Assembly: GCF_003815715.1 (NCBI RefSeq)
Contig: NZ_CP033922.1
Span: 1,749,001-1,813,000, forward strand
Source: Chryseobacterium sp. G0162
Lineage (GTDB): Bacteria > Bacteroidota > Bacteroidia > Flavobacteriales > Weeksellaceae
Direction of reading: 5' to 3'
Length of the DNA: 64,000 nt
This document shows positions 15,900 through 32,548 of the stretch, piece after piece (within the stretch, counting starts at the first letter, position 1; each line of letters opens with the position of its first letter). A model generated the notes under the pieces. That model was not told the DNA's origin and made no database searches. It was given only the letters and a program-made list of their open reading frames with translations. The position numbers and the translations under genes were made by a program.

Positions 15900-16739
15900 T
15901 TATATCGTTCTGTTACTTCTAAAAGCCAGGCTCTTATAATATCTGAATAAATAATCATAAACAATCATTTCAAACAGTCGTTGATTTGAAACAAACATCC
16001 GATTGATATGCATATGAAATACACTAGAAAAAAAGCGCTGAAGAGAGTTTGAATGATGTTTTATATGTTGCAGGGCTTCCTTAGATTCATGAATATTATT
16101 GAGAATAGCAGATCTAAAAGAAATATAATCCTCCAATTCAATAAACTCCTGATATTTAGTAATAAATATTCTATATTTTTTATCAAGCTGAGTATTTAGC
16201 TTTTTATCTGCATTGAATTCCTGTTTAAAAGCAAAATTAAATTCGTGGATCCAATTTAGTTTTTCTTCCATGGACAACCCTAGATATTCTAATACCTTAT
16301 CAATATAATAAAGGCATACCATAATTTTTTCTTCATCATCAAAATGGAGATATTCATAAAGCACGCTCTCACTACTCTTGTAAAATAAAAGTTCAGCTTC
16401 TTCCATTGTAGCTCCTCCATACCGCTCAATTTCTCTCCGGTAAACATCTATGATACATTCCGATACTTCTCCAGAATCTCTATATTCCTGCAGGGAGTTA
16501 TTTATTAACGAAACCACCCTACTAAAATTATTAAGGTCTGAAAGTTCAAAACGAAGTCGAAGATGGACCCGTGGATCATAATAACGAATAAAAAACCATT
16601 TCTTTATCAGGTCTTCCTCTTGCAGCTTCTGTAATAAAGGGACTAGAGCCTCATCCAAAATAACATCTGCTGTTTTCACTCCTGTATAAATTTTGACATA
16701 TAGCCACTCACTTCCGGGAATAAACTTTCTTATCATCAA
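15900..16739 (-). CDS. Thiopeptide-type bacteriocin biosynthesis protein (LanB C-terminal elimination domain)
   Basis: A 279-aa stand-alone version of the domain found at the C-terminus of full-length LanB dehydratases. In class I lanthipeptide and thiopeptide pathways it eliminates glutamate from glutamylated Ser/Thr to give dehydroalanine/dehydrobutyrine. The N-terminus has the typical WLYVKIYTG start and the FFIRYYDPRVHLRLRFE stretch at about residues 48-64. It lies 3 nt downstream of the LanB N-terminal gene, so the dehydratase is split into two proteins, as described for the pinensin cluster of Chitinophaga. No LanC cyclase gene is nearby. Confidence 0.9.
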   Translation of the reverse strand: MMIRKFIPGSEWLYVKIYTGVKTADVILDEALVPLLQKLQEEDLIKKWFFIRYYDPRVHLRLRFELSDLNNFSRVVSLINNSLQEYRDSGEVSECIIDVYRREIERYGGATMEEAELLFYKSSESVLYEYLHFDDEEKIMVCLYYIDKVLEYLGLSMEEKLNWIHEFNFAFKQEFNADKKLNTQLDKKYRIFITKYQEFIELEDYISFRSAILNNIHESKEALQHIKHHSNSLQRFFSSVFHMHINRMFVSNQRLFEMIVYDYLFRYYKSLAFRSNRTI

Positions 16740-16742
16740 TAT

Positions 16743-18935
16743 TTATTTTAATTTATACATTGCAAAAACAAATTCATGTTTAAAGTTTTCATTTTCATTA
16801 TATAAAAACTCTTCTATCATGATTGTTTTTTTCTTTTTAACGGTCTGGATAAAAAGCATGGCCATATCGTAATTGTCAAGGTTTAGAGCTAAAGTATTAT
16901 CTGACTCTGCCCATTGTATCCATGTAGGAACTTTCCTTTTGGTCCTCCAGTTTTTTAGTTCGGATAAAAAGTTAGCTTGATCTAAAATAAACTCATCTAA
17001 AAAGATAATCTCTTTATCCGAGATCTTCCAACGAGCTTTTACAAGAATGATATTTTTATATTCTACTCTTGGTAGAAATCTGTAGATATCATTCAATCCT
17101 CCCCAATCAAAATACAATCCCTTTCTTATTTCCTGAGAATACAGATCAGAAAGGAAATGATAAACGGGTAGTGTATTTTGAAAATAATTATGAGCATTTG
17201 TCAAATACGGTCTTATTTCTTTATTAAGCCTTTTGGATCGTAAAACAAATCTATTGCCTCGCAATGAAATATAAAGATCATCTAGTGTTATTTGGTTTTC
17301 TTCCGGCAAAACAGATTGTGCCATGTAGGGAATTTCATAATTCCTTATTGTAGGCCTTCTCACCACATTACCTATTCTTGCTTCAGGTAAGTGAATTACC
17401 TCTGCCAAAATGTATTCAGGATTCAAAGCTTCTTCTTTATCGGCAATAGCCTTGGTAAGTTTATGTATTTCAGATTTTTCAGAACAAAATCTTCCTAATA
17501 AATTGGCGGCACTACTTCCTGTACTCCCATTTAAGAATAATTTTTCTTTATTATCCTCTGATATAATTTCTGTCAAAAAAGAGATTGTATCAGGTAAATC
17601 TTGCCAATTTTCTTCTAAGCCTTCAAAATCATCATCCGATAATTCTATCCTGTATTGGTTTTCTAATAAAGCATCCTGTAACTTCTCATTAAGGATCTTT
17701 TGAATCAGATTCAGCTCAATACTTATCTTTTTATTTCTTTCAGAGATTGGAAGTCCTAGGTCATCTAAATACGGATGAACTCCTCTTATTGATGTATTTT
17801 GTTTATAACCAATACCTATCTCAGAATCTAGAACATATTGCAATGATATTTCCTCTGTTTCAAATCGGTCATGAAAAGCTTTCTTGAATTTTTCTAAACG
17901 ATTATCTTCTTGAGCTAGGGTTATTTTATTCAAAAAACTAAATGCTCTTTTAATATCTTTTTTCCAATACGATGATAAAGACAATTGATTTCTATAATAT
18001 AAGTCGGTTTGAAATAGATATTTCCGTTCATATTCTATTCCAAAAGATGCAATGAGTTCTTCAATCTCAACATAGTCTGAAACCTCATTTCCTATATTTT
18101 GATCTAACTTATTAAGTCTATCTTTTATAGAAATCAAAATATTGGCTTCATTTGCCTTGAGTCTTTCTAAAACAGAAATGATAATGTCTAAAAAATCCAT
18201 TCCTGAAACATTAGGTTCAATCTCACTTGTTAAAACCTGATTATCAATCAGTTCTTCTATAAACACTGAGGCATCTTCTTGGGTTATTTCTTCCGAAATC
18301 AGGATTTCTGAAAGTTCCTGTATGGTCTTTCCCTGTTTTGAAAATTGTAATAATTCTTGCAATTCTTCAGAAAGCGGAGCCGATGAGATAATATAATCTC
18401 TTTTACCTCCTGAATATTGATACTCTATATATCGTATTTTTTTTCCTACTCTATCAATCGTATTATTAGGATAAAACAACAGCTTATCTCTTATCTCCAG
18501 TTTTTTAACGAGATATTGAGCCAGAGATACCAGAAAATACATATCCAATTTTGTATCCCGAATTACATGATCATTATGCAATTCTGAGTTTTCATAGTCT
18601 TCACTAAACTCACCCAGCCCAACTCCAGAAAATAAGCCGAATGGGGTACAACGGGTACTCATTCGGCTATAGTATTTTAATAAAGTATGTTTTAGTTTTT
18701 GGTGTTCTTTTGGTAAAAGGTCTTTTTCTGAGTGAAGCCATCTTGTAATTTCCTCATACAAATCAGGTGAAGCTAAATAAATTGCTTCCAGAAAAACCGA
18801 TTGATCGGCAAATTCATTTTTTAATTCTCCATCAGAAATTTTATCTTTATTTACTGCTTCAAGAAATCTTTTACATGAAAATAAAGGAGTACGTACAATA
18901 TATTCTTCGAAAAATTGATAAGGAAAACGAGACAT
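16743..18935 (-). CDS. Lantibiotic dehydratase, N-terminal (glutamylation) part
   Basis: A 730-aa protein matching the N-terminal glutamyl-transfer region of LanB, which uses glutamyl-tRNA to activate Ser/Thr of a precursor peptide. The hallmark STRCTPFGLFSGVG lies at about residues 93-106 (family form SSRxTPFGLFAG), and R[NF]xGR-like basic patches follow. The SpaB-C-like elimination domain is missing here and is encoded by the next gene. The start codon overlaps or directly abuts the stop of the upstream S9 peptidase gene, so peptidase, LanB-N and LanB-C form one tight operon. The likely substrate is the 56-aa peptide at the head of the operon. Confidence 0.93.
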   Translation of the reverse strand: MSRFPYQFFEEYIVRTPLFSCKRFLEAVNKDKISDGELKNEFADQSVFLEAIYLASPDLYEEITRWLHSEKDLLPKEHQKLKHTLLKYYSRMSTRCTPFGLFSGVGLGEFSEDYENSELHNDHVIRDTKLDMYFLVSLAQYLVKKLEIRDKLLFYPNNTIDRVGKKIRYIEYQYSGGKRDYIISSAPLSEELQELLQFSKQGKTIQELSEILISEEITQEDASVFIEELIDNQVLTSEIEPNVSGMDFLDIIISVLERLKANEANILISIKDRLNKLDQNIGNEVSDYVEIEELIASFGIEYERKYLFQTDLYYRNQLSLSSYWKKDIKRAFSFLNKITLAQEDNRLEKFKKAFHDRFETEEISLQYVLDSEIGIGYKQNTSIRGVHPYLDDLGLPISERNKKISIELNLIQKILNEKLQDALLENQYRIELSDDDFEGLEENWQDLPDTISFLTEIISEDNKEKLFLNGSTGSSAANLLGRFCSEKSEIHKLTKAIADKEEALNPEYILAEVIHLPEARIGNVVRRPTIRNYEIPYMAQSVLPEENQITLDDLYISLRGNRFVLRSKRLNKEIRPYLTNAHNYFQNTLPVYHFLSDLYSQEIRKGLYFDWGGLNDIYRFLPRVEYKNIILVKARWKISDKEIIFLDEFILDQANFLSELKNWRTKRKVPTWIQWAESDNTLALNLDNYDMAMLFIQTVKKKKTIMIEEFLYNENENFKHEFVFAMYKLK

Positions 18936-21113
18936 TTATTTTTTTATTTCTTCTTTAGGCTGGTAGTCAGGATGTCCTAGTTGCCATAGTGCAAATTCAA
19001 ACATATCTCCTATATTGGCATATCTCTGTGCTATAGGAACATTACCGGAATGTCCTCCTTCAAAGTCTATTTTCAATAATATAGGATTATCAGAAGCGTT
19101 ATCAGCTATTAATTTAGCCGCAAATTTTGTAGGCATCCATGGGGTTACTCTCTGATCATTCATTCCTCCAGTGATAAAGGTAGCAGGATATTGTATCCCT
19201 TTTTTTATATTTTGATAAGCATCCATTTCCAACACTCCTTTGAACTCTTCCGGATCTTTTACAGATCCAAATTCTTTGGGCTGGCTATTGACAGCGGCTT
19301 CATCTCTAAGCATATTCAACGCTCCCACTTCTGCAATAACAGCCTTAAAAAGATCTGGCCTTTCGGTCATAGCTCGCCCCACGGTAATCCCTCCTGCACT
19401 TGCTCCCCAGATAGCGACCTTTTCTTTGGAAGTATATTTTTCATTGATTAAATATTCTGTACAGTCAATTAGGTCTCGCCACGTATTAGGCTTTGTAGCT
19501 TTAAAGCCTGCTAGCCTCCATTGGTCACCCTTTTCACCACCTCCTCTTACATGGGCAATGGCTACTATTCCTCCTTCATTTACCCACAATAAGTAAGTTT
19601 TGGCAAAAAAAGGAGTACTGGATAATCCATAAGACCCGTAAGAATCAATTAATAATGGATTTTTTCCATTTTTCACAATGTCATTATTATAAATTAAAGA
19701 CACCGGAACTTCTTCGCCATCTCTTGCTTTTATAGTAATTTCTTTAACTACAATATTTTTAAATTCAGGATATTCTGCAACCGGAGCAATATTTTCCGGT
19801 TTGAAAGTATTCGTTTTTAAATCATAGCTAAAACGCTGTTCATCATTGGCCCAACCTGAACATGTCACCCATATATCTGAAGATTTTTCATCTTTAACTT
19901 CTAACCCAATATCCCCTGATGGATAAGGAAGTTGAATAGGAGTATCTATTCCGTTTTTATATAAATACAATTTAGATTCTACTCCGTTTTTCGTAGTCGT
20001 ATAATAAATACCATCCTTAGTGACCTCATAACTTTTAATGATTTCATCCTTCTTTTCAGGTATCAAAACCTCTGCATTCTTGAAGTCAGGGTTTTTAATA
20101 TTGGTTTTACAAAGCTTAACAAATGGAGAATTATAGCTTGATTGAAATATAATCTGATCTTTTCGTACTTCTAGGCTTTTTGCTTTATCACTTGGATCAG
20201 AAAGAGCTTTCCAATTATTCTTACCATCTAGTAAATCTTTTTTCTTAATGATGTAGGTTTTTCTGTAGGTTTGATAATCTACTACCATTCCTATATAATA
20301 ATCCTGATCTAAATCAAAATTTAAAATCATAGGATACTGATCCTCAGTGATGTTGAGATTAGGATTATTTTTGGCAGAAAAAACCTCACGAATGGTGTTG
20401 GGGGCTGTACCTATTTTATATAAAACAGTTCGTGTATTTCTATAAAAATTTTTAGATTTAGGATCTGTTACCGAAAATGCAACATAGAAAAAGCCACTGT
20501 TATCATCTATCCATTTTATTCCACTAAAAGTAGCAGGAGCGCCATTTGTAATAATTTCAGGATGAATATATTTTGTTTTGACATCCATGATAAGTATATC
20601 TGCCAATTCATTTCCTTTTTCAGACATGGAAAAAGCAATTTTATTACCATCCCAACTAGGACTTATACTATTGATAACAAAATTGTGGTTAGGTTCGGTG
20701 CTTTTGTAATGAGCAGGATCGTAAAGTAATTCTTCTTTCCCTGTAAATCCATTGCGATAATACAATTTCTGTACTTTCTCATCTCCCTTCTTCTTTAAAT
20801 AAAAATATTTATTATTACCTGATATTTTTAAGTTAGATACAGAACTGCCTTGTCTCTTATCAATCTCTAGCCTTTTCTCTAAATAATAATTCTTTTTCGG
20901 AATCCGATCAAGAACAGAATTGGTGTATGCAGTCTGTGACTTCATCCAATTAAGAGTTTGGACATCTTCTATATTTTCTAAATTTCTGTATTCATCAACA
21001 ATGCTAGTTTCAAAATATCTGTCAGTAGCAGGTTTTGATGGAGCTAGATTTGTTTTTTGAGCATGAATGCAAACAGATAACAAACAGATAATAACAAATA
21101 TTCTTATTTTCAT
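18936..21113 (-). CDS. Secreted S9 prolyl oligopeptidase
   Basis: A 725-aa prolyl oligopeptidase-family serine peptidase with an N-terminal signal peptide (cleavage after HAQ, about residue 19), so it acts outside the cytoplasm. A beta-propeller region (about 90-440) is followed by the alpha/beta-hydrolase domain. The catalytic triad is visible: Ser572 in GASAGG, Asp653 in MNDQRV and His688 in EGGHSG. It sits between the precursor (12 nt upstream) and the dehydratase (directly downstream), so it is probably the peptide-processing protease. Prolyl oligopeptidase-type leader peptidases are known from class III lanthipeptide clusters (FlaP). Use in a LanB cluster is inference from position. Confidence 0.93.
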   Translation of the reverse strand: MKIRIFVIICLLSVCIHAQKTNLAPSKPATDRYFETSIVDEYRNLENIEDVQTLNWMKSQTAYTNSVLDRIPKKNYYLEKRLEIDKRQGSSVSNLKISGNNKYFYLKKKGDEKVQKLYYRNGFTGKEELLYDPAHYKSTEPNHNFVINSISPSWDGNKIAFSMSEKGNELADILIMDVKTKYIHPEIITNGAPATFSGIKWIDDNSGFFYVAFSVTDPKSKNFYRNTRTVLYKIGTAPNTIREVFSAKNNPNLNITEDQYPMILNFDLDQDYYIGMVVDYQTYRKTYIIKKKDLLDGKNNWKALSDPSDKAKSLEVRKDQIIFQSSYNSPFVKLCKTNIKNPDFKNAEVLIPEKKDEIIKSYEVTKDGIYYTTTKNGVESKLYLYKNGIDTPIQLPYPSGDIGLEVKDEKSSDIWVTCSGWANDEQRFSYDLKTNTFKPENIAPVAEYPEFKNIVVKEITIKARDGEEVPVSLIYNNDIVKNGKNPLLIDSYGSYGLSSTPFFAKTYLLWVNEGGIVAIAHVRGGGEKGDQWRLAGFKATKPNTWRDLIDCTEYLINEKYTSKEKVAIWGASAGGITVGRAMTERPDLFKAVIAEVGALNMLRDEAAVNSQPKEFGSVKDPEEFKGVLEMDAYQNIKKGIQYPATFITGGMNDQRVTPWMPTKFAAKLIADNASDNPILLKIDFEGGHSGNVPIAQRYANIGDMFEFALWQLGHPDYQPKEEIKK

Positions 21114-21125: not shown

Positions 21126-21296
21126 TTATTTACCGCTGGCTGTTTGAAAAGGTGTTGGAGGTGGATCATCACTTCCATTTCCATTAAAACCAAGTGTAAT
21201 ACCGAAAGCTCCGCGAATGGTTTTCATTTGACTTGCTTTCATCATTTGCATCTTGTTTAAAGATAGCCTTTTTTCTTCTTTTACCCTCTTTTTCAT
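21126..21296 (-). CDS. RiPP precursor peptide (lanthipeptide-like, no Cys)
   Basis: A 56-aa peptide opening the LanB operon. The N-terminal half is basic (MKKRVKEEKRLSLNKMQMMK) and matches the LSLNK-type leader seen in Bacteroidota RiPP precursors. The leader end reads QMKTIRGA, compatible with a double-glycine-type (GA) cleavage site at residues 29-30. The presumptive core (from residue 31) is AFG-less FGITLGFNGNGSDD followed by PPPTPFQTASGK. It has five Ser/Thr residues that LanB could dehydrate but no cysteine, so ordinary lanthionine rings cannot form within it. The stop lies 12 nt before the peptidase gene. The assignment rests on position, leader and length. Confidence 0.82.
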   Translation of the reverse strand: MKKRVKEEKRLSLNKMQMMKASQMKTIRGAFGITLGFNGNGSDDPPPTPFQTASGK

Positions 21297-21501: not shown

Positions 21502-23271
21502 ATGATGAGATTTAAAGCCCTTTTTTTATTTATTCTTTTAAGTAATTTACTTTATTCACAAAATAAAATAAATGATAGCTTAGAAACATATAGCTATAAA
21601 GAATTGAAAAATAAATTTTATAATTATTTTGAAAATATAAAGACCGATCAGGCTAAAACCATAGCGAAATATTACCTCCAAAAGGCTAAAAAGGAGCAAA
21701 ATACTCTTCAGACAGCAGATGGATATGTTCTTATTCATTTCAATGAAAATTTTTCAAACGCTCTAAAGTATCTGGATAGCGCAGCCATCATTACCAAAGA
21801 CTTAAAAGGAACTATATATCCCTCTCAGACTTATTTGATGAAGGGAAATCTTTATTATAAGTATGATAATTTAAAATATGCTTTAGACAATTATATTTTA
21901 GGATTACAATACTCAAAAGCCCAAAAAGACAAGAAACAGATTGCCTATGCTAATATGAATATTGCTTATTTAAATAGCTATATGGGTAAAAATGCCGATG
22001 CTGCCAAAACATTCAGATACTATTTATATAACGGAGATGGTATCACAGATGAATCTCAGCATAATCAAATGCGCATAAGCCTTATCTATTGTTATGTTGA
22101 ACTTAATAAATTGGATTCTGCTAATATTCTGATCAATGAAGGGTTAAAAGCACCATTGACTTCCCAAAACAAATACGTTAATCATCAATATATTTATTAT
22201 GTAGGAGCATATAATTTAAAATTAAAAAAATATGATGTTGCAGTCAAAAATTTTTTAAAAGCTTATCAATATTTTTCTGGTATCCAAGATCAGAATATGA
22301 ACTACTCCCTTTTAAATATTGGTAAATCTTATGAGGGGTTAAAAAACAATGAGAAAGCCGTAGAAAATTATACTAAACTGGATTCCATCATTGCAAAAAG
22401 TGGATATACATTTCCTGAACTGAGGGATGTCTATACTTTTCTTATTGATTACTATAAAGAGAAAAACAACAAAGAGCAACAACTTTACTATATTGAACGC
22501 TTTCTAAAAGTAGATCAAAAGCTTGATGAGCAATTCAAATATCTTTCAACAGAAATACCAAGAAAGTATGATACCCCCAATCTTTTGCAAGAAAAAGAAG
22601 ATATCATTGGAGAGTTAAAGACTAGAAAAAGAGTACTCTATATTTCTGTGGGGGTACTTTTATTAATCCTTTTATTCATTATATATTTATATTATAAATC
22701 TAAGAAAACAGAAAAAGAGCAAAGAAAAATTGCTCAGGATTTAATCAATTTGGTTGAAAAGAGAAATATTGAAGAGAGAAATGAAGATGAAAAAAATGAA
22801 GTTAGTACCTTTAAAATAGCTCATATTGAGGCTCCAGAGCAAAGTGAACAAAATGATAAAGCCCCTAAGATTATTTCCGAAGAAGTCACTCAATTTATAT
22901 TACAAGAATTGAGAATATTTGAATCTAAAGATCTTTTCTTAAAAAAGGGTATTACATTAGCCAGCCTAGCCAAAAATATAAAAACCAATACCACTTATTT
23001 ATCAGAAATTATTAATACCTATAAAGGAAAAAACTTTGCAGCATATCTTAATGATCTCCGTATTGATTTTGCTTTAGACAGGTTAGTAAAAGATAAAAAA
23101 TTCCGTTCCTACAAATTATCTGTCATTGCTGAAGAGTTGGGGTACAATAATGAACAGGCATTTTCTTTAGCTTTTAAGAAAAAAACAGGCACTACTCTTT
23201 CTATGTACATTAAAGAAATTGATAGCTTAAACGATCCCCAAAACAACAATAATCAACTGATATACAAGTGA
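21502..23271 (+). CDS. Transmembrane TPR sensor with AraC-type DNA-binding domain
   Basis: A 589-aa one-component regulator. It has a signal peptide or first membrane anchor (residues 1-20), tetratricopeptide repeats through about 50-340, a membrane helix at about 377-398, a charged linker, and a C-terminal AraC/XylS helix-turn-helix (about 480-575, with LSVIAEELGYNNEQAFSLAFKKKTG). The TPR part should face the periplasm and the DNA-binding part the cytoplasm. It lies between the divergent LanB operon and the grasp-with-spasm operon, so it is a candidate regulator of either or both. The same architecture is common near other functions in Chryseobacterium. The signal it senses is unknown. Confidence 0.85.
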   Translation: MMRFKALFLFILLSNLLYSQNKINDSLETYSYKELKNKFYNYFENIKTDQAKTIAKYYLQKAKKEQNTLQTADGYVLIHFNENFSNALKYLDSAAIITKDLKGTIYPSQTYLMKGNLYYKYDNLKYALDNYILGLQYSKAQKDKKQIAYANMNIAYLNSYMGKNADAAKTFRYYLYNGDGITDESQHNQMRISLIYCYVELNKLDSANILINEGLKAPLTSQNKYVNHQYIYYVGAYNLKLKKYDVAVKNFLKAYQYFSGIQDQNMNYSLLNIGKSYEGLKNNEKAVENYTKLDSIIAKSGYTFPELRDVYTFLIDYYKEKNNKEQQLYYIERFLKVDQKLDEQFKYLSTEIPRKYDTPNLLQEKEDIIGELKTRKRVLYISVGVLLLILLFIIYLYYKSKKTEKEQRKIAQDLINLVEKRNIEERNEDEKNEVSTFKIAHIEAPEQSEQNDKAPKIISEEVTQFILQELRIFESKDLFLKKGITLASLAKNIKTNTTYLSEIINTYKGKNFAAYLNDLRIDFALDRLVKDKKFRSYKLSVIAEELGYNNEQAFSLAFKKKTGTTLSMYIKEIDSLNDPQNNNNQLIYK

Positions 23272-23493: not shown

Positions 23494-23697
23494 ATGAAAA
23501 AGTTAACAGGAATGAAGAAAGGTTTTTCTTCTTTGGAAAACAAAAAATTGAAAAGAGACGATTTAAAATCAGTTAATGGTAGTTTAAAGTCTTATGCTAT
23601 CGAATCTAGTGCTGCAGTTACGACACCAGGATGCTATGAAGCTGACCATTATACATCTAATGGAGGTGCTTATATCGGTAGACTAGAAGTTTGCTAA
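23494..23697 (+). CDS. Grasp-with-spasm RiPP precursor peptide
   Basis: A 67-aa peptide heading the grasp-with-spasm gene set. The leader is basic (KKGFSSLENKKLKRDDL) and ends KSVNGS, a GS variant of the double-glycine site. The core is about 37 aa and is rich in Ser, Thr, Glu and Asp (side chains that an ATP-grasp ligase could link), with two cysteines, one near the middle and one at the very C-terminus. An alternative ATG six codons downstream (23512) would remove MKKLTG. It is followed by its own hairpin, which probably lets the precursor outnumber its enzymes. Confidence 0.8.
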   Translation: MKKLTGMKKGFSSLENKKLKRDDLKSVNGSLKSYAIESSAAVTTPGCYEADHYTSNGGAYIGRLEVC

Positions 23698-23766: not shown

Positions 23767-24627
23767 ATGAAAATTTTACCATTTCTCTCTCTTATCATTT
23801 TATTATTCCTTACATCTTGTAAAAAGAACTATATAACTTATTATAATAAGGTGAACGAGATTGACAGCATATATAGACTGGCCAACAATCCTAAATTAGC
23901 TGTAAATGAATACAGGCAAATTTTCAAAGAATATGATCCTAAAAATCAGGACCGTATTGAAGAATATGCAACTTATATCACTCTTGCTGATCAGTATCAT
24001 GAAGACTTTGGTGGAAAAAAAAGTCTTTATCAATTAATTTCTCTGATTGCCCCTAATGGAGACGAATATAAAAAGTATCTGCCTCTTTTTAATAAATATG
24101 GAATAGACAATACATCTGTTGAACAAAAAATAACAGAATGGAAACAAGGACTAGATAAAACACTGGTTGATTCTTTCAAGATTGCTCTGATAAGAGATCA
24201 GGCAGGTCGTCCCCTTGATACAGCATTGACCAGAAAAAATGTAGAGAAAAACGCAAATCTTCTTATATGGACCTTTAAAAATCATGGATTTCCAACACCT
24301 CAAAAAATAGGATGGTTTCCAATGCCAACCTTTATTACTCATATGGTTGAGTCCAAAAAAAATTATCCATTTATAAAGGAAAAATTACTGGAATATGTAA
24401 AATCAGGAGACTTCTCCCCGCGTGACTATGCAAGGATGGAGGATACCTACTTAGGAGCTCATAAAAAAATTACACTATATGGTTTTAATATGATTCCTGT
24501 AAAAGACAGTGCACTGACTGACCGTAACCGGAAAAGTCTGGGAATTCCAAGCATGAAACACAGTTCCAAAATAAGAAAAGATTTTTTTAAAAAACTAAAA
24601 CAAGATGATACTCATCATATCGAATAA
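23767..24627 (+). CDS. Lipoprotein, DUF6624-like, in the grasp-with-spasm cluster
   Basis: A 286-aa predicted lipoprotein (lipobox LTSC at residues 15-18). The second half contains a DQAGRP segment near residue 141, a GFPTP stretch, ITHM, a D-x-A-x-x-E-D segment and a YGF motif. These recall the DUF6624 pattern (DQ...R, GWP, QHA, DR, YGTQ), though several positions differ. No function is established. It lies between precursor and ATP-grasp genes and overlaps the latter by 23 nt, so it belongs to the operon. A role in handling or sensing the extracellular peptide is a guess. Confidence 0.65.
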   Translation: MKILPFLSLIILLFLTSCKKNYITYYNKVNEIDSIYRLANNPKLAVNEYRQIFKEYDPKNQDRIEEYATYITLADQYHEDFGGKKSLYQLISLIAPNGDEYKKYLPLFNKYGIDNTSVEQKITEWKQGLDKTLVDSFKIALIRDQAGRPLDTALTRKNVEKNANLLIWTFKNHGFPTPQKIGWFPMPTFITHMVESKKNYPFIKEKLLEYVKSGDFSPRDYARMEDTYLGAHKKITLYGFNMIPVKDSALTDRNRKSLGIPSMKHSSKIRKDFFKKLKQDDTHHIE

Positions 24628-25507
24628 CGGAGATTCCACAACCACAAAAGTTATCAAATATCTTTCGGCAATGGGAAAGAAGTTTATTCGAGTGCATGAA
24701 GATGAGTTTTTTGAAATTAAGGCTGATAAAAAAAGAATTTATTTGGTGAGTAACAGAAACAATTTTTTTCTGGATGAAATTGCAAGTACATGGTACAGAA
24801 GAGGAGGTTTAAAATTCAAACGCCTATCCTATGATAATAATGCTGCCAACCACCATATGGATGAACACCAACATTGGCTGGAAGATTACGTGATAAAAAC
24901 CTTGGAATCAAAAAAAAGCATTAATAAACAGAGCAACAATCATGTTAATAAACTCTTGGTCCTGGAGCAGGCAAAGAAAATTGGGTTAAAAGTTCCAGAA
25001 TATTTTCTAGCAGAAAATACTGATGAAGTTGTTATCAATAAAACAATTACAAAACCCATTACAGAAAATGTAATATTAGATTCTGTCGAGAAAAACTTCA
25101 ACGGCATCATTTACACTTCAGTAATACAGGAAAAAGAGAAAGAAGAATTCTTCATCACCTTTTTTCAGGAAAAAATTGAAAAGGACTTTGAAATAAGAAG
25201 CTTTTATCTGGCTGGTAAAATGTGGTCTACTGCTATTATTTCTCAAAATGATGAGCAGACTAAAACCGATTTTAGAAAATATAATTATAAAAAGCCGAAT
25301 AGAAAAGTACAATACCAACTTCCTGAAGACATTGAAGAAAAAACGCATCTGCTTATGCAATCACTGGACTTAAGCTGTGGCTCGATAGACTTTATAAAAA
25401 GTGGAAACACGTTCTACTTTTTGGAAGTTAATCCTACAGGTCAGTTCATTGGGCTATCAGAAATCTGCAACTATTCATTAGAAAAAGAAATAGCACAATA
25501 TTTATGA
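24605..25507 (+). CDS. gwsG: Grasp-with-spasm system ATP-grasp peptide maturase
   Basis: A 300-aa ATP-grasp ligase of the microviridin-maturase-like class, which activates Asp/Glu side chains with ATP and joins them to Ser/Thr/Lys side chains as esters or amides. The N-terminus (MILIISNNGDSTTTKVIKYL) and the STWYRRGG stretch near residue 60 are typical of GwsG. The C-terminus has the metal/ATP-binding GSIDFIK...FLEVNPTGQF segment. It overlaps the preceding lipoprotein gene and the next small gene (by 4 nt), indicating a coupled operon. The substrate is inferred to be the 67-aa precursor. Confidence 0.9.
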   Translation: MILIISNNGDSTTTKVIKYLSAMGKKFIRVHEDEFFEIKADKKRIYLVSNRNNFFLDEIASTWYRRGGLKFKRLSYDNNAANHHMDEHQHWLEDYVIKTLESKKSINKQSNNHVNKLLVLEQAKKIGLKVPEYFLAENTDEVVINKTITKPITENVILDSVEKNFNGIIYTSVIQEKEKEEFFITFFQEKIEKDFEIRSFYLAGKMWSTAIISQNDEQTKTDFRKYNYKKPNRKVQYQLPEDIEEKTHLLMQSLDLSCGSIDFIKSGNTFYFLEVNPTGQFIGLSEICNYSLEKEIAQYL

Positions 25508-25689
25508 AAAAATTATTTAAAGAAGAAAAAAATAAATTACCTCTTACCTTTAAATTTATTGAAAAGCTTGGCACTAAAAAATCTAATGATAAAACCAGTA
25601 TTAACATAAACTATATAGAGTGTGAAGTCTATCAAACAGATTATCTGATGAGGGAAAGGCCAATAAAAGCACTTACAAGATTATTATGA
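25504..25689 (+). CDS. Small 61-aa protein coupled to gwsG and gwsS
   Basis: A 61-aa Lys-rich protein that I do not recognise. Its ATG overlaps the gwsG stop by 4 nt and its own stop overlaps the start of the SPASM gene by 4 nt, so it is translated as part of the operon and is unlikely to be spurious. It has no signal peptide or membrane helix, and one cysteine in IECEVYQTDYL. Possible roles are an accessory or recognition protein for the maturases; its sequence gives no further clue. Confidence 0.65.
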   Translation: MKKLFKEEKNKLPLTFKFIEKLGTKKSNDKTSININYIECEVYQTDYLMRERPIKALTRLL

Positions 25690-26786
25690 GATATTTTAAC
25701 CTATTCAGTAATATTTTAATCACCAAAGGAGCCGGAAGAATCTTGATCTCGGATCTTCAGAGGAAAATCTCGGATCTTTATCCTTTGGAATTATATGATA
25801 TTATCGAGGAGCTGAAAAATGATTCTATTGAAAATATCTTAGAAAATTATGATGCTGAATCTAAAGAGATTATTCATGAATATATAGACTTTCTGCTTGA
25901 AAAAGAATATGGTTTTATAACAAATGATGATTGGGATAGGAATTTCCTTCCCATGTCCTATGAGTTCCAGGAAGTAAGCAAAGTCTCAAATGTTTTCATT
26001 GAAATTGATGACATCATTATTCTTGACAGGATAAAAAACTCTATTAACAACTTAGGGGTAAAACATTTAACAATTTATTGTATTAAGAAACTTTCTCTTG
26101 AAGAATGCCAGGCTATAGACAATAAATTTAAAGGCTCTGTTTTAGAAGGTATAGAAATATATTCTCCATTTCATAATGCCTTAGATCAGGAGTTTTTCCA
26201 AATACTCAATCAAACAACCACAAGAATTTATAATTTCTTTTTTTACGATTGCAAAAAGATCCCTTTTAAGACCACAGAAGTATTTAGATTTACGATAAAC
26301 TTTAACCATGAAAACATCAAAATATCCGCTTGCGGAAAAATAGATCTAAAATACTTCAATACCAATCTTCCAAAAGTTCTTGAAGCAATTAATCACAATT
26401 CCTGTTTACACAAAAAAATAGGAATTGATATCAACGGTAATATAAAGAACTGCCCTTTAATGCCGGAAAAATTTGGAAATATCCATGAATCAAGTCTTGA
26501 AGAGGTTCTGATACAAAACAATTTCAAAAAGTATTGGAACCTCACTAAAGACAAAATAGAAATTTGTAAAGATTGTGAGTTTCGGTATGTTTGCACTGAT
26601 TGCCGTGCTTACACAGGAAGAACCCACAAGAATAAAGAGGGTCTTGATATTTCAAAACCTTTAAAATGTGGTTATAATCCATATACGTGCACTTGGGAAG
26701 ACTGGAGTCAAAATCCTTTGCATCAAGAAGCAATGCAATATTATAATTTAGGAAACTTGGTTTTAAAGCCAAATTCTATAAAATAA
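25686..26786 (+). CDS. gwsS: Grasp-with-spasm system SPASM-domain peptide maturase
   Basis: A 366-aa protein with a SPASM-type C-terminal Fe-S binding region. Cysteines lie at about 240, 256 (GNIKNCP), 294, 297, 303, 306, 328 and 335. The CxxC pairs and the following CGYNPYTC pattern are typical of auxiliary cluster domains in peptide-modifying enzymes. I find no N-terminal CxxxCxxC radical SAM motif; its absence fits the grasp-with-spasm family, whose chemistry is not established. It is the last gene of the coupled operon (4-nt overlap upstream), 110 nt before the VKOR gene. Confidence 0.88.
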   Translation: MRYFNLFSNILITKGAGRILISDLQRKISDLYPLELYDIIEELKNDSIENILENYDAESKEIIHEYIDFLLEKEYGFITNDDWDRNFLPMSYEFQEVSKVSNVFIEIDDIIILDRIKNSINNLGVKHLTIYCIKKLSLEECQAIDNKFKGSVLEGIEIYSPFHNALDQEFFQILNQTTTRIYNFFFYDCKKIPFKTTEVFRFTINFNHENIKISACGKIDLKYFNTNLPKVLEAINHNSCLHKKIGIDINGNIKNCPLMPEKFGNIHESSLEEVLIQNNFKKYWNLTKDKIEICKDCEFRYVCTDCRAYTGRTHKNKEGLDISKPLKCGYNPYTCTWEDWSQNPLHQEAMQYYNLGNLVLKPNSIK

Positions 26787-26896: not shown

Positions 26897-28405
26897 ATGA
26901 TTTTTGATAAACTAATTAACTACCTAAAACTTGATAAGCAGGAATTTATTTTCCAGTTTAACTCTCACCCCAACTATCCGTCCGCACTGGCGTTCAGTGA
27001 TACACTAAACTTTTTGGGAGTAAAAAATGATGCCTATCAACTTGACAAAGAATATTGGGACGAGCTTCCGGAAGAATTTATTGCCATTGTTGACAATTCC
27101 TTCTCACTGGTGAAAAAATCTGGAAGTAATTATTCTGTGTATTCCGAAAAAGCAAAAACACTAGATAAAGAAGAGCTTTACAAGAATTCTACAGATTTTG
27201 TTCTTCTGTTTGAAAAGACTGAAAATGCAGAAAATAAAGTAGCTTTCAATTTCAAACCTATTTTATATGCTGTATTTGCAGTGATTCTTATCTATTCATT
27301 TATATATCAAGGACCACTTGAAGCAATCTTTAATCTTCTTTCATTAGCCGGTGTTTATATTTCATTGGAATTATTTAATCAAAAATTTGGAAACACCTCC
27401 AGTGTAATTGGAAGTATTTGTGGAGCTGCTCCAGCTACTCAAACGGCTAATTCATGTGACAGAATTATTAAACAAGATAAAACCAGTATTTTAGGATTAA
27501 AGTTTTCAGACTTTTCGCTGATTTACTTTACCGGGCTTGCCATATTAGGATTATTTTTACCCGCTACAGCTTATATCGTAAAAGGATTTACTTTCGTCTC
27601 TATACTGGCAATAGGTTATTCTTTGTATATCCAGGCTTTTGTTGAAAAAACATTTTGTAGAGTTTGTCTGTTAATCATCTCTATCCTGGTAGGCCAATTA
27701 GTTATTAGTGCTTTCTTTTTCCAAAATCTTTCTTTTGGGATTGGTGCTCTTTTACTGACAGTTATTTTATGGGCAATCATCTTTTCAGCTGTAATGTATT
27801 CCAACACCCTTCTTGAACAGAAAGAGGAACTTCAAAAATCGAATGCTAAAAATCTTAGATTCAAAAGAAACTATGAGCTTTTCAAAAGCCAGCTATTAGA
27901 AAGAGACAAAATAGAATTTCAGGATACTGAAACATTTTCAGTGGGGAAAAAAGATGCAAGGCTTCGTATTTCCATTATTTCTAATCCTTATTGTGGTTTC
28001 TGTAAAGATGGTCATAAACTGGCAGAAAGTCTTTTAAAGAAATATCCGGATGATGTTTCTTTACAAATGAGATTCAATTATACCCCTGAAAGATCTAATG
28101 AAAAATACAATGCATTGATCTCAGATCTAACCCACATTTACAACAATAAGTCGGAAAAAGAATTCTTACATGCGGTTGAAGAATGGTTCGAAACAAGAGA
28201 TGAAAACAAAGTCAACATTTTATCTGGAGGAGTTGTTACATCAGAAAACCTGAATCCATTAGTTCAAATGTCCGTAGAAAACAGTAATGCAGGACTTAAC
28301 TTCACTCCTATTCTCGTGATTAACGGCTATCAGTTTCCGGAAAAATATGACAGAGAAGATATTCTGTTCTTTGTTGATGAATTAATAGAAGACGAAGAAA
28401 TTTAA
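26897..28405 (+). CDS. VKOR-family thiol oxidase fused to a DsbA-like thioredoxin domain
   Basis: A 502-aa membrane protein in three parts. Residues 1-110 resemble a C39-peptidase fold but contain no cysteine, so that part is not a working protease. Residues about 120-300 form the helical VKOR domain, with loop cysteines 175 and 187 and the CRVC redox motif at 254-257. Residues about 340-502 form a thioredoxin domain with CGFC at 366-369. It should oxidise cysteines to disulfides outside the cytoplasm, with quinone as electron acceptor. Its position beside two Cys-containing secreted peptides and their exporter suggests that it makes their disulfides. Confidence 0.9.
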   Translation: MIFDKLINYLKLDKQEFIFQFNSHPNYPSALAFSDTLNFLGVKNDAYQLDKEYWDELPEEFIAIVDNSFSLVKKSGSNYSVYSEKAKTLDKEELYKNSTDFVLLFEKTENAENKVAFNFKPILYAVFAVILIYSFIYQGPLEAIFNLLSLAGVYISLELFNQKFGNTSSVIGSICGAAPATQTANSCDRIIKQDKTSILGLKFSDFSLIYFTGLAILGLFLPATAYIVKGFTFVSILAIGYSLYIQAFVEKTFCRVCLLIISILVGQLVISAFFFQNLSFGIGALLLTVILWAIIFSAVMYSNTLLEQKEELQKSNAKNLRFKRNYELFKSQLLERDKIEFQDTETFSVGKKDARLRISIISNPYCGFCKDGHKLAESLLKKYPDDVSLQMRFNYTPERSNEKYNALISDLTHIYNNKSEKEFLHAVEEWFETRDENKVNILSGGVVTSENLNPLVQMSVENSNAGLNFTPILVINGYQFPEKYDREDILFFVDELIEDEEI

Positions 28406-28498: not shown

Positions 28499-28663
28499 AT
28501 GAAAAATCTAAAAAAACTTTCAAGAGAAGGCCTAAGAATCCTGAAAGGTGGTATTACTCAGGAATGTGCAAGAATTCAGTATGAAGCGAGCTATTGTGAA
28601 TCCAAAACCAATCCACCTAAGGAGGGAGCTATAAATGCATGTAACAAATGGTGCTATTACTAG
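28499..28663 (+). CDS. Bacteriocin-like peptide 1 with Gly-Gly leader
   Basis: A 54-aa peptide. The leader MKNLKKLSREGLRILKGG is the standard Chryseobacterium bacteriocin-like leader with a C39 double-glycine site at residues 17-18. The 36-aa core has four cysteines (positions 23, 33, 48 and 52), enough for two disulfides, and ends WCYY. The VKOR gene lies upstream and the C39 exporter downstream. Whether the peptide is toxic or signals is unknown. Confidence 0.85.
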   Translation: MKNLKKLSREGLRILKGGITQECARIQYEASYCESKTNPPKEGAINACNKWCYY

Positions 28664-28745: not shown

Positions 28746-30938
28746 TTGAAGAAATTTCCTTTTTATAAACAACCAGACACTAAAGACTGTGGACCTACAT
28801 GTCTTAGAATTGTAAGTAAATATTACGGTAAAAGTATATCCCTGCAACAAATCCGGGCCCTTTCTGAAACTACCCGTGAAGGAAGCAGCCTTCTAGGATT
28901 GAGTGATGCAGCAGAGAATCTTGGATTCCGTTCATTAGGAGTTCAGGTCGACTTTAAAACCCTCGTAGAAGAAGTTCCGCTTCCATGTGTTGTACACTGG
29001 AACAAAAACCACTTTGTAGTTGTTTATAAGGTTGATAAAAATAATAAGATATACATCTCTGATCCCAGCTACGGACTCATTACCTACAATCAGGAGGAAT
29101 TCATCAAATCCTGGATCGGAGAAAATGCCAACGAAAATACTGAGGAAGGAATAGCCCTTATTCTGGAAACAACACCGGCATTCTTTCAAACCGAATTTGA
29201 CAATGAAGAAAGTAAAGCCAGTTTTTCATTCCTTTCCAAATATCTCTTTAAATACAAGTCACTTGTTCTTCAACTGGCTGTAGGACTTCTTGCAGGAAGT
29301 TTATTATCTCTGGTTTTCCCGTTTCTTACCCAGAGTATTGTAGATGTCGGGATACAGAATCAGGATATTAACTTTATCTATCTTGTCCTGCTTGCGCAGA
29401 TTATGCTATTCTTTGGAAGAATGGGTATTGAGACGATCAGAAGCTGGATTCTTCTCCATCTTTCTGCCAGAATTAATATTTCGATTATTTCCGATTTCTT
29501 TATCAAACTTATGAAGCTCCCTATCAGCTTTTTTGATACCAGAATGACCGGAGATATCATGCAAAGAATCAATGACCACCACAGAATAGAACAACTCCTT
29601 ACCAGCTCTTCATTAAATACCCTGTTTTCATTGGTCAACCTGATTATCTTCAGTATTGTCCTTTTACTTTACGATTACAGACTATTCATTGTTTATCTTG
29701 TAGGTGCCGTAGCATATATCGGATGGATCAGTTTCTTCCTGAAAAAGAGAAAAGAACTTGATTACAAAAGATTTTCCCAGGTTTCTCAGGAACAAAGTAA
29801 GGTCATTGAGCTTATCAACGGAATGCAGGAAATAAAAATGCATAATGCTGAAAAGCAAAAAAGATGGGATTGGGAATTCCTTCAGGTAAAACTATTTAAA
29901 ATCAGAATAAAATCATTGTCTTTAGAGCAATGGCAATCTGTAGGAGGAAACTTCATTAATCAGATGAAAGATATTCTGGTAAGCTTCCTCTCTGCAAAAT
30001 TAGTATTGAGCGGAAACTTAACCTTAGGGATGATGCTTTCTGTACAATATATCATTGGACAGTTGAACAGCCCGCTTCTCCAGCTTATTGATTTTATTAA
30101 ACAAACGCAGGATGCTAAGATCTCCCTTGAAAGATTAGGGGAAATTCACGATAAAGAAGATGAAGAAAGTAAGGATGAGCAATATGCTATGGAAATTCCT
30201 CAAAGGGATATAGAGATTTCCGATATGTCATTCAGATACATCGGATCTGATGTCCCGGTTTTTGAAAACCTGAGCCTTACTATTCCCTATCAGAAAACGA
30301 CAGCAATTGTTGGAGCCAGTGGAAGTGGAAAAACTACCCTATTGAAGCTTCTGATGAAGTTTTATGAGCCAGACCAAGGAGATATTAAAATCGGGAATAC
30401 CGCCCTTAAGAATATTTCACCACGATTCTGGAGAGATCATTGCGGAGTTGTAATGCAGGAAGGATATGTATTTAATGATACGATTGCCAATAACATCGCT
30501 GTTGGTGAAGATCATATCGACAAAAAGAAATTAAGACGTGCAGTAGAAATAGCCAATATCAAAGAGTTTGTTGAAGGATTACCACTTAGTTATAATACAA
30601 AGATCGGAAATGAAGGTGTTGGAGTAAGTGGAGGACAGAAGCAAAGACTTTTCATTGCAAGGGCCGTTTATAAATCCCCTGAATACATTTTATTTGATGA
30701 AGCTACTTCCGCATTGGATGCCAATAATGAGAAGATTATTATGGAAAACCTTGAACAGTTCTTTAAAGGCAAGACAGCAGTAGTGATTGCCCACAGACTT
30801 TCTACTGTAAAACATGCCGATAAGATTATTGTACTGGACAGAGGAAAAGTTGTAGAAGAAGGCAGCCATGCTGAATTGGTAGATCTACGCGGTGAATATT
30901 ACCGATTGGTAAGAAATCAGCTTGAATTAGGAAATTAA
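28746..30938 (+). CDS. C39-peptidase-containing ABC exporter
   Basis: A 730-aa bacteriocin/peptide exporter that removes double-glycine leaders while exporting the core. The N-terminal C39 peptidase has Cys15 in DCGPTC, His89 in NHFVV and Asp106 in SDPSYG. About six membrane helices span 165-450. The ATPase has Walker A GASGSGKT (523-530), the signature VSGGQ (627-631) and Walker B YILFDE. The start is TTG at 28746, chosen because it gives the normal short lead-in before the catalytic Cys. The two flanking peptides are its obvious substrates; the two other RiPP precursors in the region have compatible leader ends. Confidence 0.95.
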   Translation: MKKFPFYKQPDTKDCGPTCLRIVSKYYGKSISLQQIRALSETTREGSSLLGLSDAAENLGFRSLGVQVDFKTLVEEVPLPCVVHWNKNHFVVVYKVDKNNKIYISDPSYGLITYNQEEFIKSWIGENANENTEEGIALILETTPAFFQTEFDNEESKASFSFLSKYLFKYKSLVLQLAVGLLAGSLLSLVFPFLTQSIVDVGIQNQDINFIYLVLLAQIMLFFGRMGIETIRSWILLHLSARINISIISDFFIKLMKLPISFFDTRMTGDIMQRINDHHRIEQLLTSSSLNTLFSLVNLIIFSIVLLLYDYRLFIVYLVGAVAYIGWISFFLKKRKELDYKRFSQVSQEQSKVIELINGMQEIKMHNAEKQKRWDWEFLQVKLFKIRIKSLSLEQWQSVGGNFINQMKDILVSFLSAKLVLSGNLTLGMMLSVQYIIGQLNSPLLQLIDFIKQTQDAKISLERLGEIHDKEDEESKDEQYAMEIPQRDIEISDMSFRYIGSDVPVFENLSLTIPYQKTTAIVGASGSGKTTLLKLLMKFYEPDQGDIKIGNTALKNISPRFWRDHCGVVMQEGYVFNDTIANNIAVGEDHIDKKKLRRAVEIANIKEFVEGLPLSYNTKIGNEGVGVSGGQKQRLFIARAVYKSPEYILFDEATSALDANNEKIIMENLEQFFKGKTAVVIAHRLSTVKHADKIIVLDRGKVVEEGSHAELVDLRGEYYRLVRNQLELGN

Positions 30939-30958
30939 CCAAAGAGAATCAACATACA

Positions 30959-30989: not shown

Positions 30990-31008
30990 TTATAAACATC
31001 TATTAATT

Positions 31009-31203
31009 ATGAAAAATCTAAAAAAACTTTCCAGAAAAGATTTAGTTTTTGTCAGTGGAGGTGTAGTAATTCCGGATGATAATTGTTGCGGATCATGGTG
31101 TCTGGGTAGCTGGATGCCATGTCGTATGCATCATATTGCATGTCCACCAGACGCAGATACTTCACCACCATCATGGTATGACGGGACTTGCCCACGTATT
31201 TAA
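31009..31203 (+). CDS. Bacteriocin-like peptide 2 with Gly-Gly leader
   Basis: A 64-aa peptide with leader MKNLKKLSRKDLVFVSGG (cleavage after residue 18). The 46-aa core has six cysteines, including an adjacent Cys-Cys pair, and is rich in Pro, Trp and His. Its leader and the preceding DNA are near-identical to those of peptide 1 while the cores are unrelated, which suggests leader/UTR duplication with core replacement. It lies 70 nt after the exporter and 46 nt before the HlyD gene. Confidence 0.85.
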   Translation: MKNLKKLSRKDLVFVSGGVVIPDDNCCGSWCLGSWMPCRMHHIACPPDADTSPPSWYDGTCPRI

Positions 31204-31209
31204 ATTATA

Positions 31210-31237
31210 TTCCCCCTGAAATATTGGGGGAAATTTT
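31210..31237 (+). terminator. Hairpin between peptide 2 and the HlyD gene
   Basis: TTCCCCC and GGGGGAA arms enclose a 9-base loop and are followed by ATTTTA. It starts directly after the peptide 2 stop. The short T-tract suggests partial termination. Confidence 0.6.
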
Positions 31238-31249
31238 ACCTCAGAAACA

Positions 31250-32548
31250 ATGAAAGAAGACGTTTTAGACAATATTGAACTCCGCTCAGAAAGTGTACAG
31301 GATATCCTTACCCAGCCGCCTAATTGGATGATCCGTTGGGGAAACACGCTTATATTCATAATTATTCTGCTCATTTTTATAATGAGTTACATTATAAAAT
31401 ATCCGGAATTTGTACCGGCCCCCATTATCGTAACTTCTCAAAATCCTCCGGAAAAATTAGAAGCGAGGATCAATTCAAAGATTGAGAAAATATTCATTAA
31501 AGACCATCAGGAAGTAAAGAAAAATGACGTACTGATGGTAATGCTGTCTGCCGCCAATTATAAAGATGTAATAGCATTAAAAAAATTGGTAGACTCTACG
31601 TCTCCTAATCAGCTTAGCTCCTTTCCTATCGCCCAGACTTCAAGATATAAACTGGGTGAACTGCAGGGAGAATACAACAGCTTTGCAAAAGCTTTTCAGG
31701 ACGAAGAACTTTTTACAAGACTACAGCCTTATGCTCCGGAAAATTTGGCTACCAATCTAAGTCTTTCCGAGTCTAGAGCAAGGATTTCTACTTTAAAACA
31801 ACAGAAAAGTCTGGAATCAGCCAAATACGATCTTACCAGAAAGAATTTTCAGCGGTCTCAGGAGCTGTTCAATCAGGGAGTAATCTCTGCCATGGAACTT
31901 GAGAGTGAAAAAATCAAATATCTTCAGGCTCAACAGAACCTTGAAAATATCAATATTTCTATTTCACAGGCTGAAGAAGGGATTTCCAACCTTAATAAAA
32001 CCAAAAGCGGAACAGTAATTAATACAGAAAAAGATAAAATCAATTATTCTTCACAAACCTTACAGCTTTTTGAACAATTAAGAAAAGCGCTAAAACTTTG
32101 GGAACAAAATTATCTTGTTATTTCATCTACAGATGGTGTAGCCAGCTTCCAGCAGTTTTTCGGTGAAAATCAGTTCGTAAAAGCAGGAGAAGCTATTGTA
32201 TCTATCCTTCCTAAGAATAAAGAGAAATTAGTAGGTAGAATGTCTGTTCCTACGGCAAACTCCGGAAAGATTCACCCAGGAGAGAAAGTATTAATCAAAT
32301 TGGATAACTACCGCTTCCAGGAATATGGGATTGTAGAAGGAAAAGTTCAGAATATATCCCTGATTCCTGATGATAAAGGAAATTATTATGTAGATGTGAT
32401 TTTACCAAAAGGATTAAAAACAAGCTATAATAAAAATCTGAAATTTGATAAAGAACTTAGAGGAAGTGCAGAAATTGTAACTGAAGATCTGAGACTTATT
32501 GAAAGATTTTTCTATCAAATCAGAAAGCTATTAGGATATCAAGCCTGA
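31250..32548 (+). CDS. HlyD-family periplasmic adaptor of the peptide exporter
   Basis: A 432-aa membrane fusion protein. A membrane helix near residues 30-50 is followed by a short lipoyl-like segment, a long coiled-coil hairpin (about 120-260, with many Gln/Glu/Lys heptads), a second barrel half and a beta-barrel domain. It should link the inner-membrane ABC exporter to an outer-membrane TolC-type channel. No TolC homologue is in this window, so the channel must be encoded elsewhere. It closes the peptide-export gene set and is followed by a terminator. Confidence 0.92.
   Translation: MKEDVLDNIELRSESVQDILTQPPNWMIRWGNTLIFIIILLIFIMSYIIKYPEFVPAPIIVTSQNPPEKLEARINSKIEKIFIKDHQEVKKNDVLMVMLSAANYKDVIALKKLVDSTSPNQLSSFPIAQTSRYKLGELQGEYNSFAKAFQDEELFTRLQPYAPENLATNLSLSESRARISTLKQQKSLESAKYDLTRKNFQRSQELFNQGVISAMELESEKIKYLQAQQNLENINISISQAEEGISNLNKTKSGTVINTEKDKINYSSQTLQLFEQLRKALKLWEQNYLVISSTDGVASFQQFFGENQFVKAGEAIVSILPKNKEKLVGRMSVPTANSGKIHPGEKVLIKLDNYRFQEYGIVEGKVQNISLIPDDKGNYYVDVILPKGLKTSYNKNLKFDKELRGSAEIVTEDLRLIERFFYQIRKLLGYQA

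Follow-up and report, generated by a model that had tools for sequence, protein, structure and literature searches.

Positions 15900-32548 of the window analysed here (64,000 nucleotides, 64 kb, of the 5.28-Mb single-contig genome of Chryseobacterium sp. G0162) hold three units: on the minus strand a LanB cassette, and on the plus strand both a grasp-with-spasm (GwS) cassette and an operon with genes for a VKOR-DsbA fusion, a peptide, a C39 exporter, another peptide and an HlyD-type adaptor. This operon (26897-32548), called the hub below, is probably a genus-wide export-and-folding station for about 75 peptides, Cys-rich ones as well as those modified by GwS and LanB enzymes. The observations behind this reading are co-occurrence across genomes, gene order, leader families and Cys parity. 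The operon is the constant part of the arrangement, and the cassettes are its variable part.

A preliminary description of the window had taken the island for four precursors, three processing machineries and one exporter. The genes that it named lie where it placed them and belong by profile match to the families that it gave. Its inference that chemically different peptides share an export route is supported by comparative genomics, yet was too modest in scale, as the sharing unit is the genome, and differs in anatomy, as the hub consists of the VKOR, C39 and HlyD genes, with LanB and GwS as cassettes, a minority of which are at the hub. Four precursors is right for the island but not as a total, since the genome holds about 75 such peptides. 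Two of the machineries stand, split LanB with its S9 peptidase and GwS, but VKOR/DsbA is a gene of the conserved exporter operon rather than machinery for one peptide. Recast as one hub with about 75 peptides of three kinds of chemistry, the idea has more support than the earlier reader could know.

Leader peptides and hub across genomes

The similar leader ends reported earlier, MKTIRGA, LKSVNGS, LRILKGG and LVFVSGG, are present in the four peptides of the island. When ATG-started open reading frames of 45-90 amino acids were scanned over the window for this motif ending at residues 15-32, it was found in 5 of 96 frames, namely the four peptides and one frame within a transporter gene at 14098. 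With a mean of 0.42 and a maximum of 3 such frames in 60 dinucleotide shuffles of the window, the motif is above chance. By profile, the peptides at 28499 (27.0 bits) and 31009 (26.7 bits) both exceed the cut-off of NF047798 (leader_Chryseo; 23.5 bits). The GwS precursor at 23494 stays under it with 18 bits and exceeds the TIGR04139 cut-off instead, and the LanB-cassette precursor at 21126 matched neither NF047798 nor any other curated family in profile searches.

The NF047798 search of the source genome gave 80 matches at E ≤10, with 54 at E ≤0.01 and 45 above the curated cut-off. Of these 80, 73 were read, omitting 3 in the window and 4 weak matches (E 0.9 to 7) for which no region had been fetched. 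About 75 leader peptides are thus found in about 36 places of the genome (35 fetched regions and the hub), nearly all of them short, the leader rich in K and the core rich in Cys. Core parsing was performed with 74 sequences (72 of the 73 read and the two hub peptides, leaving out the GwS precursor); the start was moved in 4 sequences, and 1 of the 74 was unparsed. Among the 73 parsed cores, 4 Cys occur in 27, 6 in 40, 8 in 4, 5 in 1 and 1 in 1, so the Cys number is even in 71. The leaders end with GG (54), GS (6), GA (5), AG (3), GN (2), GK (2) or GE (1). The peptide at genome position 4870620 (L046) has a long GGVVGGVIGGVG-type stretch ahead of a Cys-containing end and is unlike the other cores.

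The 35 peptide regions (3-19.5 kb each) were searched with the window's own enzymes. GwS genes were found in one region, which is a second GwS locus, and an ABC ATPase-type match (24% identity over 217 amino acids) in one; LanB, S9, VKOR and HlyD relatives were found in none, in a search confined to the enzyme types of the window. Accordingly, 34 of the 35 regions are without a LanB or GwS relative.

We infer from the sequences that the hub cleaves, transports and oxidizes these peptides. The C39 domain of the exporter would cut leaders ending in small residues, which are GG and also GA and GS, and the ABC part with HlyD would carry the core across the envelope, judging from their families. 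The VKOR-DsbA protein would oxidize exported Cys-rich cores to disulfides, a role proposed because redox Cys pairs are in the protein and Cys counts are even in the cores; the 75 or so mini-peptides could possibly have mostly two or three disulfides each. The hub would serve these peptides from all their places, most of which have no LanB or GwS genes nearby. It would also be the exit for GwS peptides and for split-LanB peptides made without LanC. The cassettes of both classes usually lack a dedicated exporter; they lie beside the hub in some genomes, including this one, and elsewhere in others.

A sample of 118 genomes of the genus was searched for C39, NF047798, the VKOR protein, split LanB and GwsS. 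C39 was found in 115 genomes, NF047798 (E ≤0.01) in 110 and any VKOR match in 111. A VKOR orthologue was counted in 110 genomes, leaving out G050 with its relative of 25% identity, and peptide counts per genome are lower bounds for rich genomes (≤69 candidates scored). Peptides and the VKOR orthologue are both present in 110 genomes and both absent in 8, and neither is found without the other. Some C39 gene remains in 5 of the 8 hub-negative genomes; the peptides therefore match the hub, not C39 genes in general. Four genomes with one divergent C39 gene have neither VKOR nor peptides.

A single C39 gene is found in 26 of the 110 hub genomes and more than one in the other 84. In 23 of the 26 this gene lies no more than 6 kb from VKOR, and these 23 single-exporter genomes have 7-50 peptides each with a median of 18, at least 461 in all. 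In the other three, G017, G084 and G092, with 11, 1 and 13 peptides, the matches listed show no C39 gene that close to VKOR. The hub locus of G084 (L263) has a shortened VKOR gene, then C39 and HlyD genes, and this genome has a single leader peptide. This may be a stage of hub decay; G084 stands beside hub-less relatives in an rpoB tree.

Co-occurrence could also result if the hub and the peptides were old lineage traits, co-lost in genome reduction and otherwise independent, with several exporters in use. The 8 negative genomes are indeed small (3.2-4.4 Mb compared with 5.3 Mb here) and located in one half of the rpoB tree, and more than one C39 gene is the rule among hub genomes. Yet on the tree, which samples 30 genomes with all 8 negatives among them, 6 changes are required, at least 4 of them on starred branches, and sister pairs are seen such as G038 with the hub and 11 peptides beside G054 with neither. 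The joint absence of peptides is not one deletion, because peptides are scattered over dozens of loci. Moreover, G050 keeps GwS genes without hub peptides, and up to 50 peptides are found in single-exporter genomes. We consider this explanation quite improbable.

The family sample comprised 196 genomes of 27 genera, many of them of the same genus, to which G269 belongs. Outside the genus, 10 genomes have a VKOR relative that matches along most of the length (in two pieces in one case) at ≥40% identity. All 10 have peptides, and two genomes with VKOR fragments, G120 and G219, also carry them. No peptides were listed in G162, G200, G205, G207 and G229, where VKOR relatives have only 27-37% identity, or in G119 and G134, where VKOR matches are short or weak. 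Loci of four other genera (g7, g11, g19 and g22) have the hub genes together. Their order is changed in g19, and in g22 the C39 gene follows about 8 kb on, behind a GwS cassette, with HlyD beyond the stretch read.

The hub operon

All hub genes are on the plus strand. The exporter (28746..30938) has C39 peptidase (PF03412, 123 bits), ABC membrane (PF00664, 110.5 bits) and ABC ATPase domains (PF00005, 104.1 bits), all above cut-off. It scores 438.8 bits with the NCBIfam subfamily TIGR01193, below the cut-off of 523.85. When its residues 3-125 were aligned to LahT150 (6mpz), the DCG, HWNKNH and SDP stretches matched, which we take to contain the catalytic Cys, His and Asp of a C39 peptidase. The GG-leader peptides on its two sides are encoded at 28499..28663 with a 4-Cys core and at 31009..31203 with a 6-Cys core, and the HlyD-type adaptor (31250..32548; PF13437, 44.8 bits) is the last gene.

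The first gene (26897..28405) encodes VKOR (PF07884, 38.6 bits) and thioredoxin-fold domains (PF13462, 32.2 bits) with conserved redox Cys, as a VKOR-DsbA fusion does. Its Cys 175, 187, 254, 257, 366 and 369 are invariant in a 17-row alignment, and the protein is 95-96% identical to those of Chryseobacterium indologenes and C. bernardetii. An AF2 model with a mean pLDDT of 84 matches VKOR and DsbA folds; with an earlier model (pLDDT 63.7), the 50 best fold matches were almost entirely DsbA-like and included one VKOR.

In front of the VKOR part, this protein has a putative, degenerate C39-like domain, on which the evidence is mixed. The domain itself scores 14.3 bits with PF03412, under the cut-off. 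Precomputed PF03412 matches are listed for 6 of 120 VKOR relatives in one set and 0 of 120 in another, and 21 of 86 chosen relatives, those 6 included, have matches at E ≤0.01 with the best at 7e-8. A wider profile with one of the 6 positive relatives as reference scored 32.6, compared with at most 18.3 in 30 shuffles, and a narrow profile scored below shuffles. A fold search gave PCAT1 at E 9.5e-4 but with a root-mean-square deviation of 31.9, and the VIA-align list (50 entries) barely covers residues 1-138, so that the absence of C39 chains there is uninformative. The domain lacks Cys in residues 1-112 and so has no catalytic Cys helix of an active C39 peptidase, and the family profile aligns only from exporter residue 44 on. 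In the model a helix at 120-137 precedes the VKOR helices; if it spans the membrane, the C39-like domain would face outside. We tentatively suggest that this dead domain might hold GG leaders or newly cut peptides close to the exporter, and that one exporter and one oxidase might process the whole repertoire, including graspetide-like and dehydrated peptides; this extended version is doubtful compared with the hub itself.

Gene order was examined in 80 of 112 loci found with the VKOR protein (78 titled Chryseobacterium and 2 Weeksellaceae). VKOR, C39 and HlyD genes occur in that order in 68 of the 69 loci having more than 6 kb of downstream sequence. Counted with one strict leader pattern, which can miss peptides, the 80 loci have 0-4 peptide genes in the VKOR-C39 interval and 0-3 in the C39-HlyD interval. 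The 8-kb flanks have GwsS in 12 of the 80 and a LanB glutamylation gene in 7.

Separately, divergent VKOR relatives (25-32% identity) were seen near a C39 exporter gene in L257:2209-5999 and in G050 contig 12, as if paralogous hubs with other leader families exist.

The two modification cassettes

The GwS cassette on the plus strand contains a precursor (23494..23697) whose leader ends with NGS (TIGR04139, 54.9 bits with cut-off 40; PF14406, 28.9 bits with cut-off 25), an ATP-grasp peptide maturase (24605..25507; TIGR04192, 346.4 bits with cut-off 230) and a SPASM-domain peptide maturase (25686..26786; TIGR04193, 412.3 bits with cut-off 175). The three TIGR families that define grasp-with-spasm are thus all above cut-off.

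At least 150 GwsS loci exist in 87 genomes, and 86 of the 87 genomes with listed GwsS have the hub. Among those listed, 26 loci are within 10 kb of the hub, at least 5 of the 150 are near another C39 gene, and at most 119 are near neither. In 10 single-C39 genomes, 18 listed GwS loci lie away from the hub. The stretches fetched around them (8-14 kb, shortened in some cases by the end of a contig) contained no exporter-type match, and at 14 of these 18 loci a candidate precursor was seen whose leader is of GG or GA type. The second GwS locus of the source genome at 1.45 Mb (L236:7267-10600) has a precursor leader ending with QGA and no exporter within about 8 kb.

The LanB cassette on the minus strand has the elimination (15900..16739; PF14028, 205.4 bits; TIGR03891, 199 bits) and glutamylation domains (16743..18935; PF04738, 464.1 bits) of LanB both present as stand-alone proteins. 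They are accompanied by an S9 peptidase (18936..21113; PF00326, 162.7 bits; PF02897, 128.4 bits), which has a Sec-type signal sequence by eye and is a candidate second leader protease, and by a precursor (21126..21296) with the leader LSLNKMQMMKASQMKTIRGA and a core without Cys. Its leader end is GA.

Because the protein-database search with this precursor gave a single match, 93% identical, relatives were sought via gene neighbourhood. The uncurated family was read at 27 of 41 split-LanB loci, which are 40 fetched (26 with relatives) and the window. Its leaders read roughly MKKxxxxEKKLSLKKxQIMKIxxMKTIxGG, ending with GG in 24 of 27 and GA in 3, so the GA end of the window precursor is a variant. 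Cys is absent from 18 of the 27 precursors and occurs once in 9. No LanC was found near the LanB cassette; the genome has a single LanC match, which lies at 4.03 Mb. A lanthipeptide label for this cassette was set aside because LanC is missing and the majority of the precursors have no Cys; the product is likely a dehydrated peptide without thioether rings. The S9 peptidase, with homologues at 33 of 40 split-LanB loci and missing at 7, may trim the exported peptide.

The split-LanB set, at ≥50% identity and excluding broken copies in G031 and G108 as well as all matches below 50%, comprises 65 loci in 57 genomes. The hub is present in all 57 genomes with near-full split LanB and holds the only C39 gene in 11 of them. 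There are 22 loci within 15 kb of the hub, at least 9 near another C39 gene and at most 34 near neither; the last number is an overcount because the G005 locus, about 20 kb from the hub, has a divergent C39 exporter, with 28% identity along most of the protein, at a distance of about 9 kb from LanB. Of the remote loci, 20 were read (17 of the 34 near neither and 3 of the 9 near another C39), and in the stretches fetched 17 of the 20, those near neither, had no C39, HlyD or exporter-type ABC match. Five split-LanB loci away from the hub in 5 single-C39 genomes had no exporter-type match either, some stretches ending at contig ends.

Were unrelated clusters of ribosomally synthesized and post-translationally modified peptides (RiPPs) landing side by side by chance, about 0.4 loci would be expected near the hub by our estimate (30 kb in 5 Mb) rather than 22 of 65, several of which come from close relatives of the source genome. 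Most GwS and LanB loci of the genus are not at the hub, as a chance island would have it, but the shared leader ends also argue against it, and we regard it as extremely improbable.

Several observations weigh against a single hub. The source genome has a second C39 gene at 4.03 Mb, 2.25 Mb from the island, in a class I lanthipeptide cluster, so the earlier claim of only one C39 exporter holds within the island and is ruled out for the genome, which has two. Dedicated exporters elsewhere, named in the preliminary description as what would speak against sharing, are half the case, as this gene adjoins another lanthipeptide cluster. In the genus, most hub genomes (84 of 110) carry additional C39 genes, making exporter assignment ambiguous there, and the peptide number rises somewhat with the C39 gene number (rho 0.36, p 1e-4). 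No C39 gene lies within 6 kb among the listed matches in 10 of the 110, although in two of these ten, G063 and G084, one is present near VKOR on reading. G036 has 50 peptides and a VKOR frame broken by stops (L093), due to sequencing error or real loss, and G050 has GwS genes without a hub orthologue, but with other C39 genes and the 25% VKOR relative. Weak peptide matches without listed VKOR are found in G130, G132, G257 and G269 (E 4e-4 to 3e-3). The associations of the hub with GwS (p 0.0003) and split LanB (p 0.006) in the 118 genomes were not corrected for kinship. At least 9 of the 65 LanB cassettes, plus that of G005, are near another C39 exporter. Finally, the signal sequence of the S9 peptidase suggests another cleavage step for the LanB peptide.

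In another explanation, the hub takes unmodified and GwS peptides, and the LanB peptide of the window leaves via the 4.03-Mb exporter or via its own S9 peptidase and another transporter. The cluster at 4.03 Mb (L034:8345-15194) contains fused LanB, LanC, a C39 exporter and a GG precursor beginning MNNKFSQLQLNKKTIAKLNERQLSTVKGG, which has a related L-x-L-N-K leader and a core with Cys and many Thr (CTTTS-type). The cassette in the window has an S9 peptidase with a signal sequence, its leader ends with GA and not GG, and at least 10 of 65 split-LanB loci are near a C39 exporter other than the hub's. However, the hub C39 is the only C39 gene in the 11 genomes mentioned above, 22 of 65 split-LanB loci are at the hub, 24 of 27 LanB-family precursors end with GG, and 7 of 40 loci have no S9 gene. 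We consider this two-exporter arrangement unlikely, though less so than the alternatives of lineage loss and chance. In the source genome, the window LanB peptide could use the hub exporter or the second C39 exporter.

Known systems and neighbouring genes

The genus-wide hub reading is made of parts of known kinds. PCAT/AMS-type C39 exporters are usually encoded beside one or few substrates. The hub exporter resembles those of this type (LahT150 6mpz, PCAT1 and ComA) in peptidase motif stretches, ABC body and GG-type leaders; in contrast to them, three peptide kinds and about 75 precursors spread over the genome here appear to rely on a single exporter, and a redox protein is in the operon.

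The GwS cassette resembles grasp-with-spasm (branch 5) graspetide loci of Bacteroidetes as presented in PMC8939145, sharing ATP-grasp, SPASM, a TIGR04139/PF14406 precursor, an LPL-like protein and a GG-type leader. According to that paper, a C39 peptidase is not typical of the locus and the leader-cleaving enzyme is unknown, and Table 1 has the C39 exporter among the commonest associated families. A 2026 paper (PMC13039773) describes a class I microviridin protease, refers to a graspetide C39 exporter that cleaves at GG in vitro, and states that many graspetide clusters have no identifiable protease. Unlike for the loci in PMC8939145, a remote hub exporter is proposed for Chryseobacterium. If true, it would explain protease-less graspetide loci in this genus.

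The LanB cassette shares LanB domains, an L-x-L-x-K leader and, in most relatives, a GG end with Bacteroidetes class I lanthipeptides as described in PMC7268733 and, for Chryseobacterium ChmABC, PMC9993889, and its LanB is split as in pinensin (PMC7268733). PMC7268733 also describes L-x-L-x-K-x5-L leaders ending with GG and C39 proteases among class I precursors of Bacteroidetes, and prolyl-oligopeptidase genes in class III lanthipeptide clusters. The LanB cassette differs from class I lanthipeptides in having no LanC and, in 18 of 27 precursors, no Cys (one in the other 9), making lanthionine rings in the product unlikely on sequence grounds. As PMC7268733 reports class I distribution from LanC proteins, LanC-free clusters like that of the window may have escaped this survey.

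Prochlorosins (PMC10783134) likewise have many precursor genes, partly scattered, and one shared machine. That machine is one LanM-type enzyme, whereas here it would be an exporter and a disulfide oxidase, and most substrates here are Cys-rich with no modifying genes seen nearby. The modifying enzymes recognized in the window belong to the LanB and GwS kinds. A literature search, covering titles and abstract starts with most subscription papers outside its coverage, found no description of a shared VKOR-C39 hub, nor of this arrangement and its tie to a genome-wide Cys-rich repertoire. If the hub reading is true, the orphan 'bacteriocin-like' open reading frames, of which each genome has dozens, would form one secreted repertoire, probably disulfide-rich, and in these bacteria the exporter and leader protease should be sought genome-wide, not per cluster.

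Other genes of the island were also characterized. Within the GwS cassette on the plus strand, a lipoprotein-like protein (23767..24627) has no family above cut-off; its relatives occur at many of the GwS loci read and are missing from others. It is perhaps 'cluster 23' of PMC8939145. A 61-residue protein with KLPLTF (25504..25689), upstream of the SPASM gene, would fit the LPL family described in the same source. A TPR and AraC-type regulator (21502..23271, plus strand; PF12833, 45.4 bits), which had not been mentioned before, is divergent from the LanB genes and has a homologue at 35 of 40 split-LanB loci read. In G005, the divergent C39 exporter (L087:12945-15369) is between two S9/AraC-type genes. 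In its vicinity a 28-residue stretch matches the beginning of the hub VKOR protein with 82% identity, possibly a trace of rearrangement.

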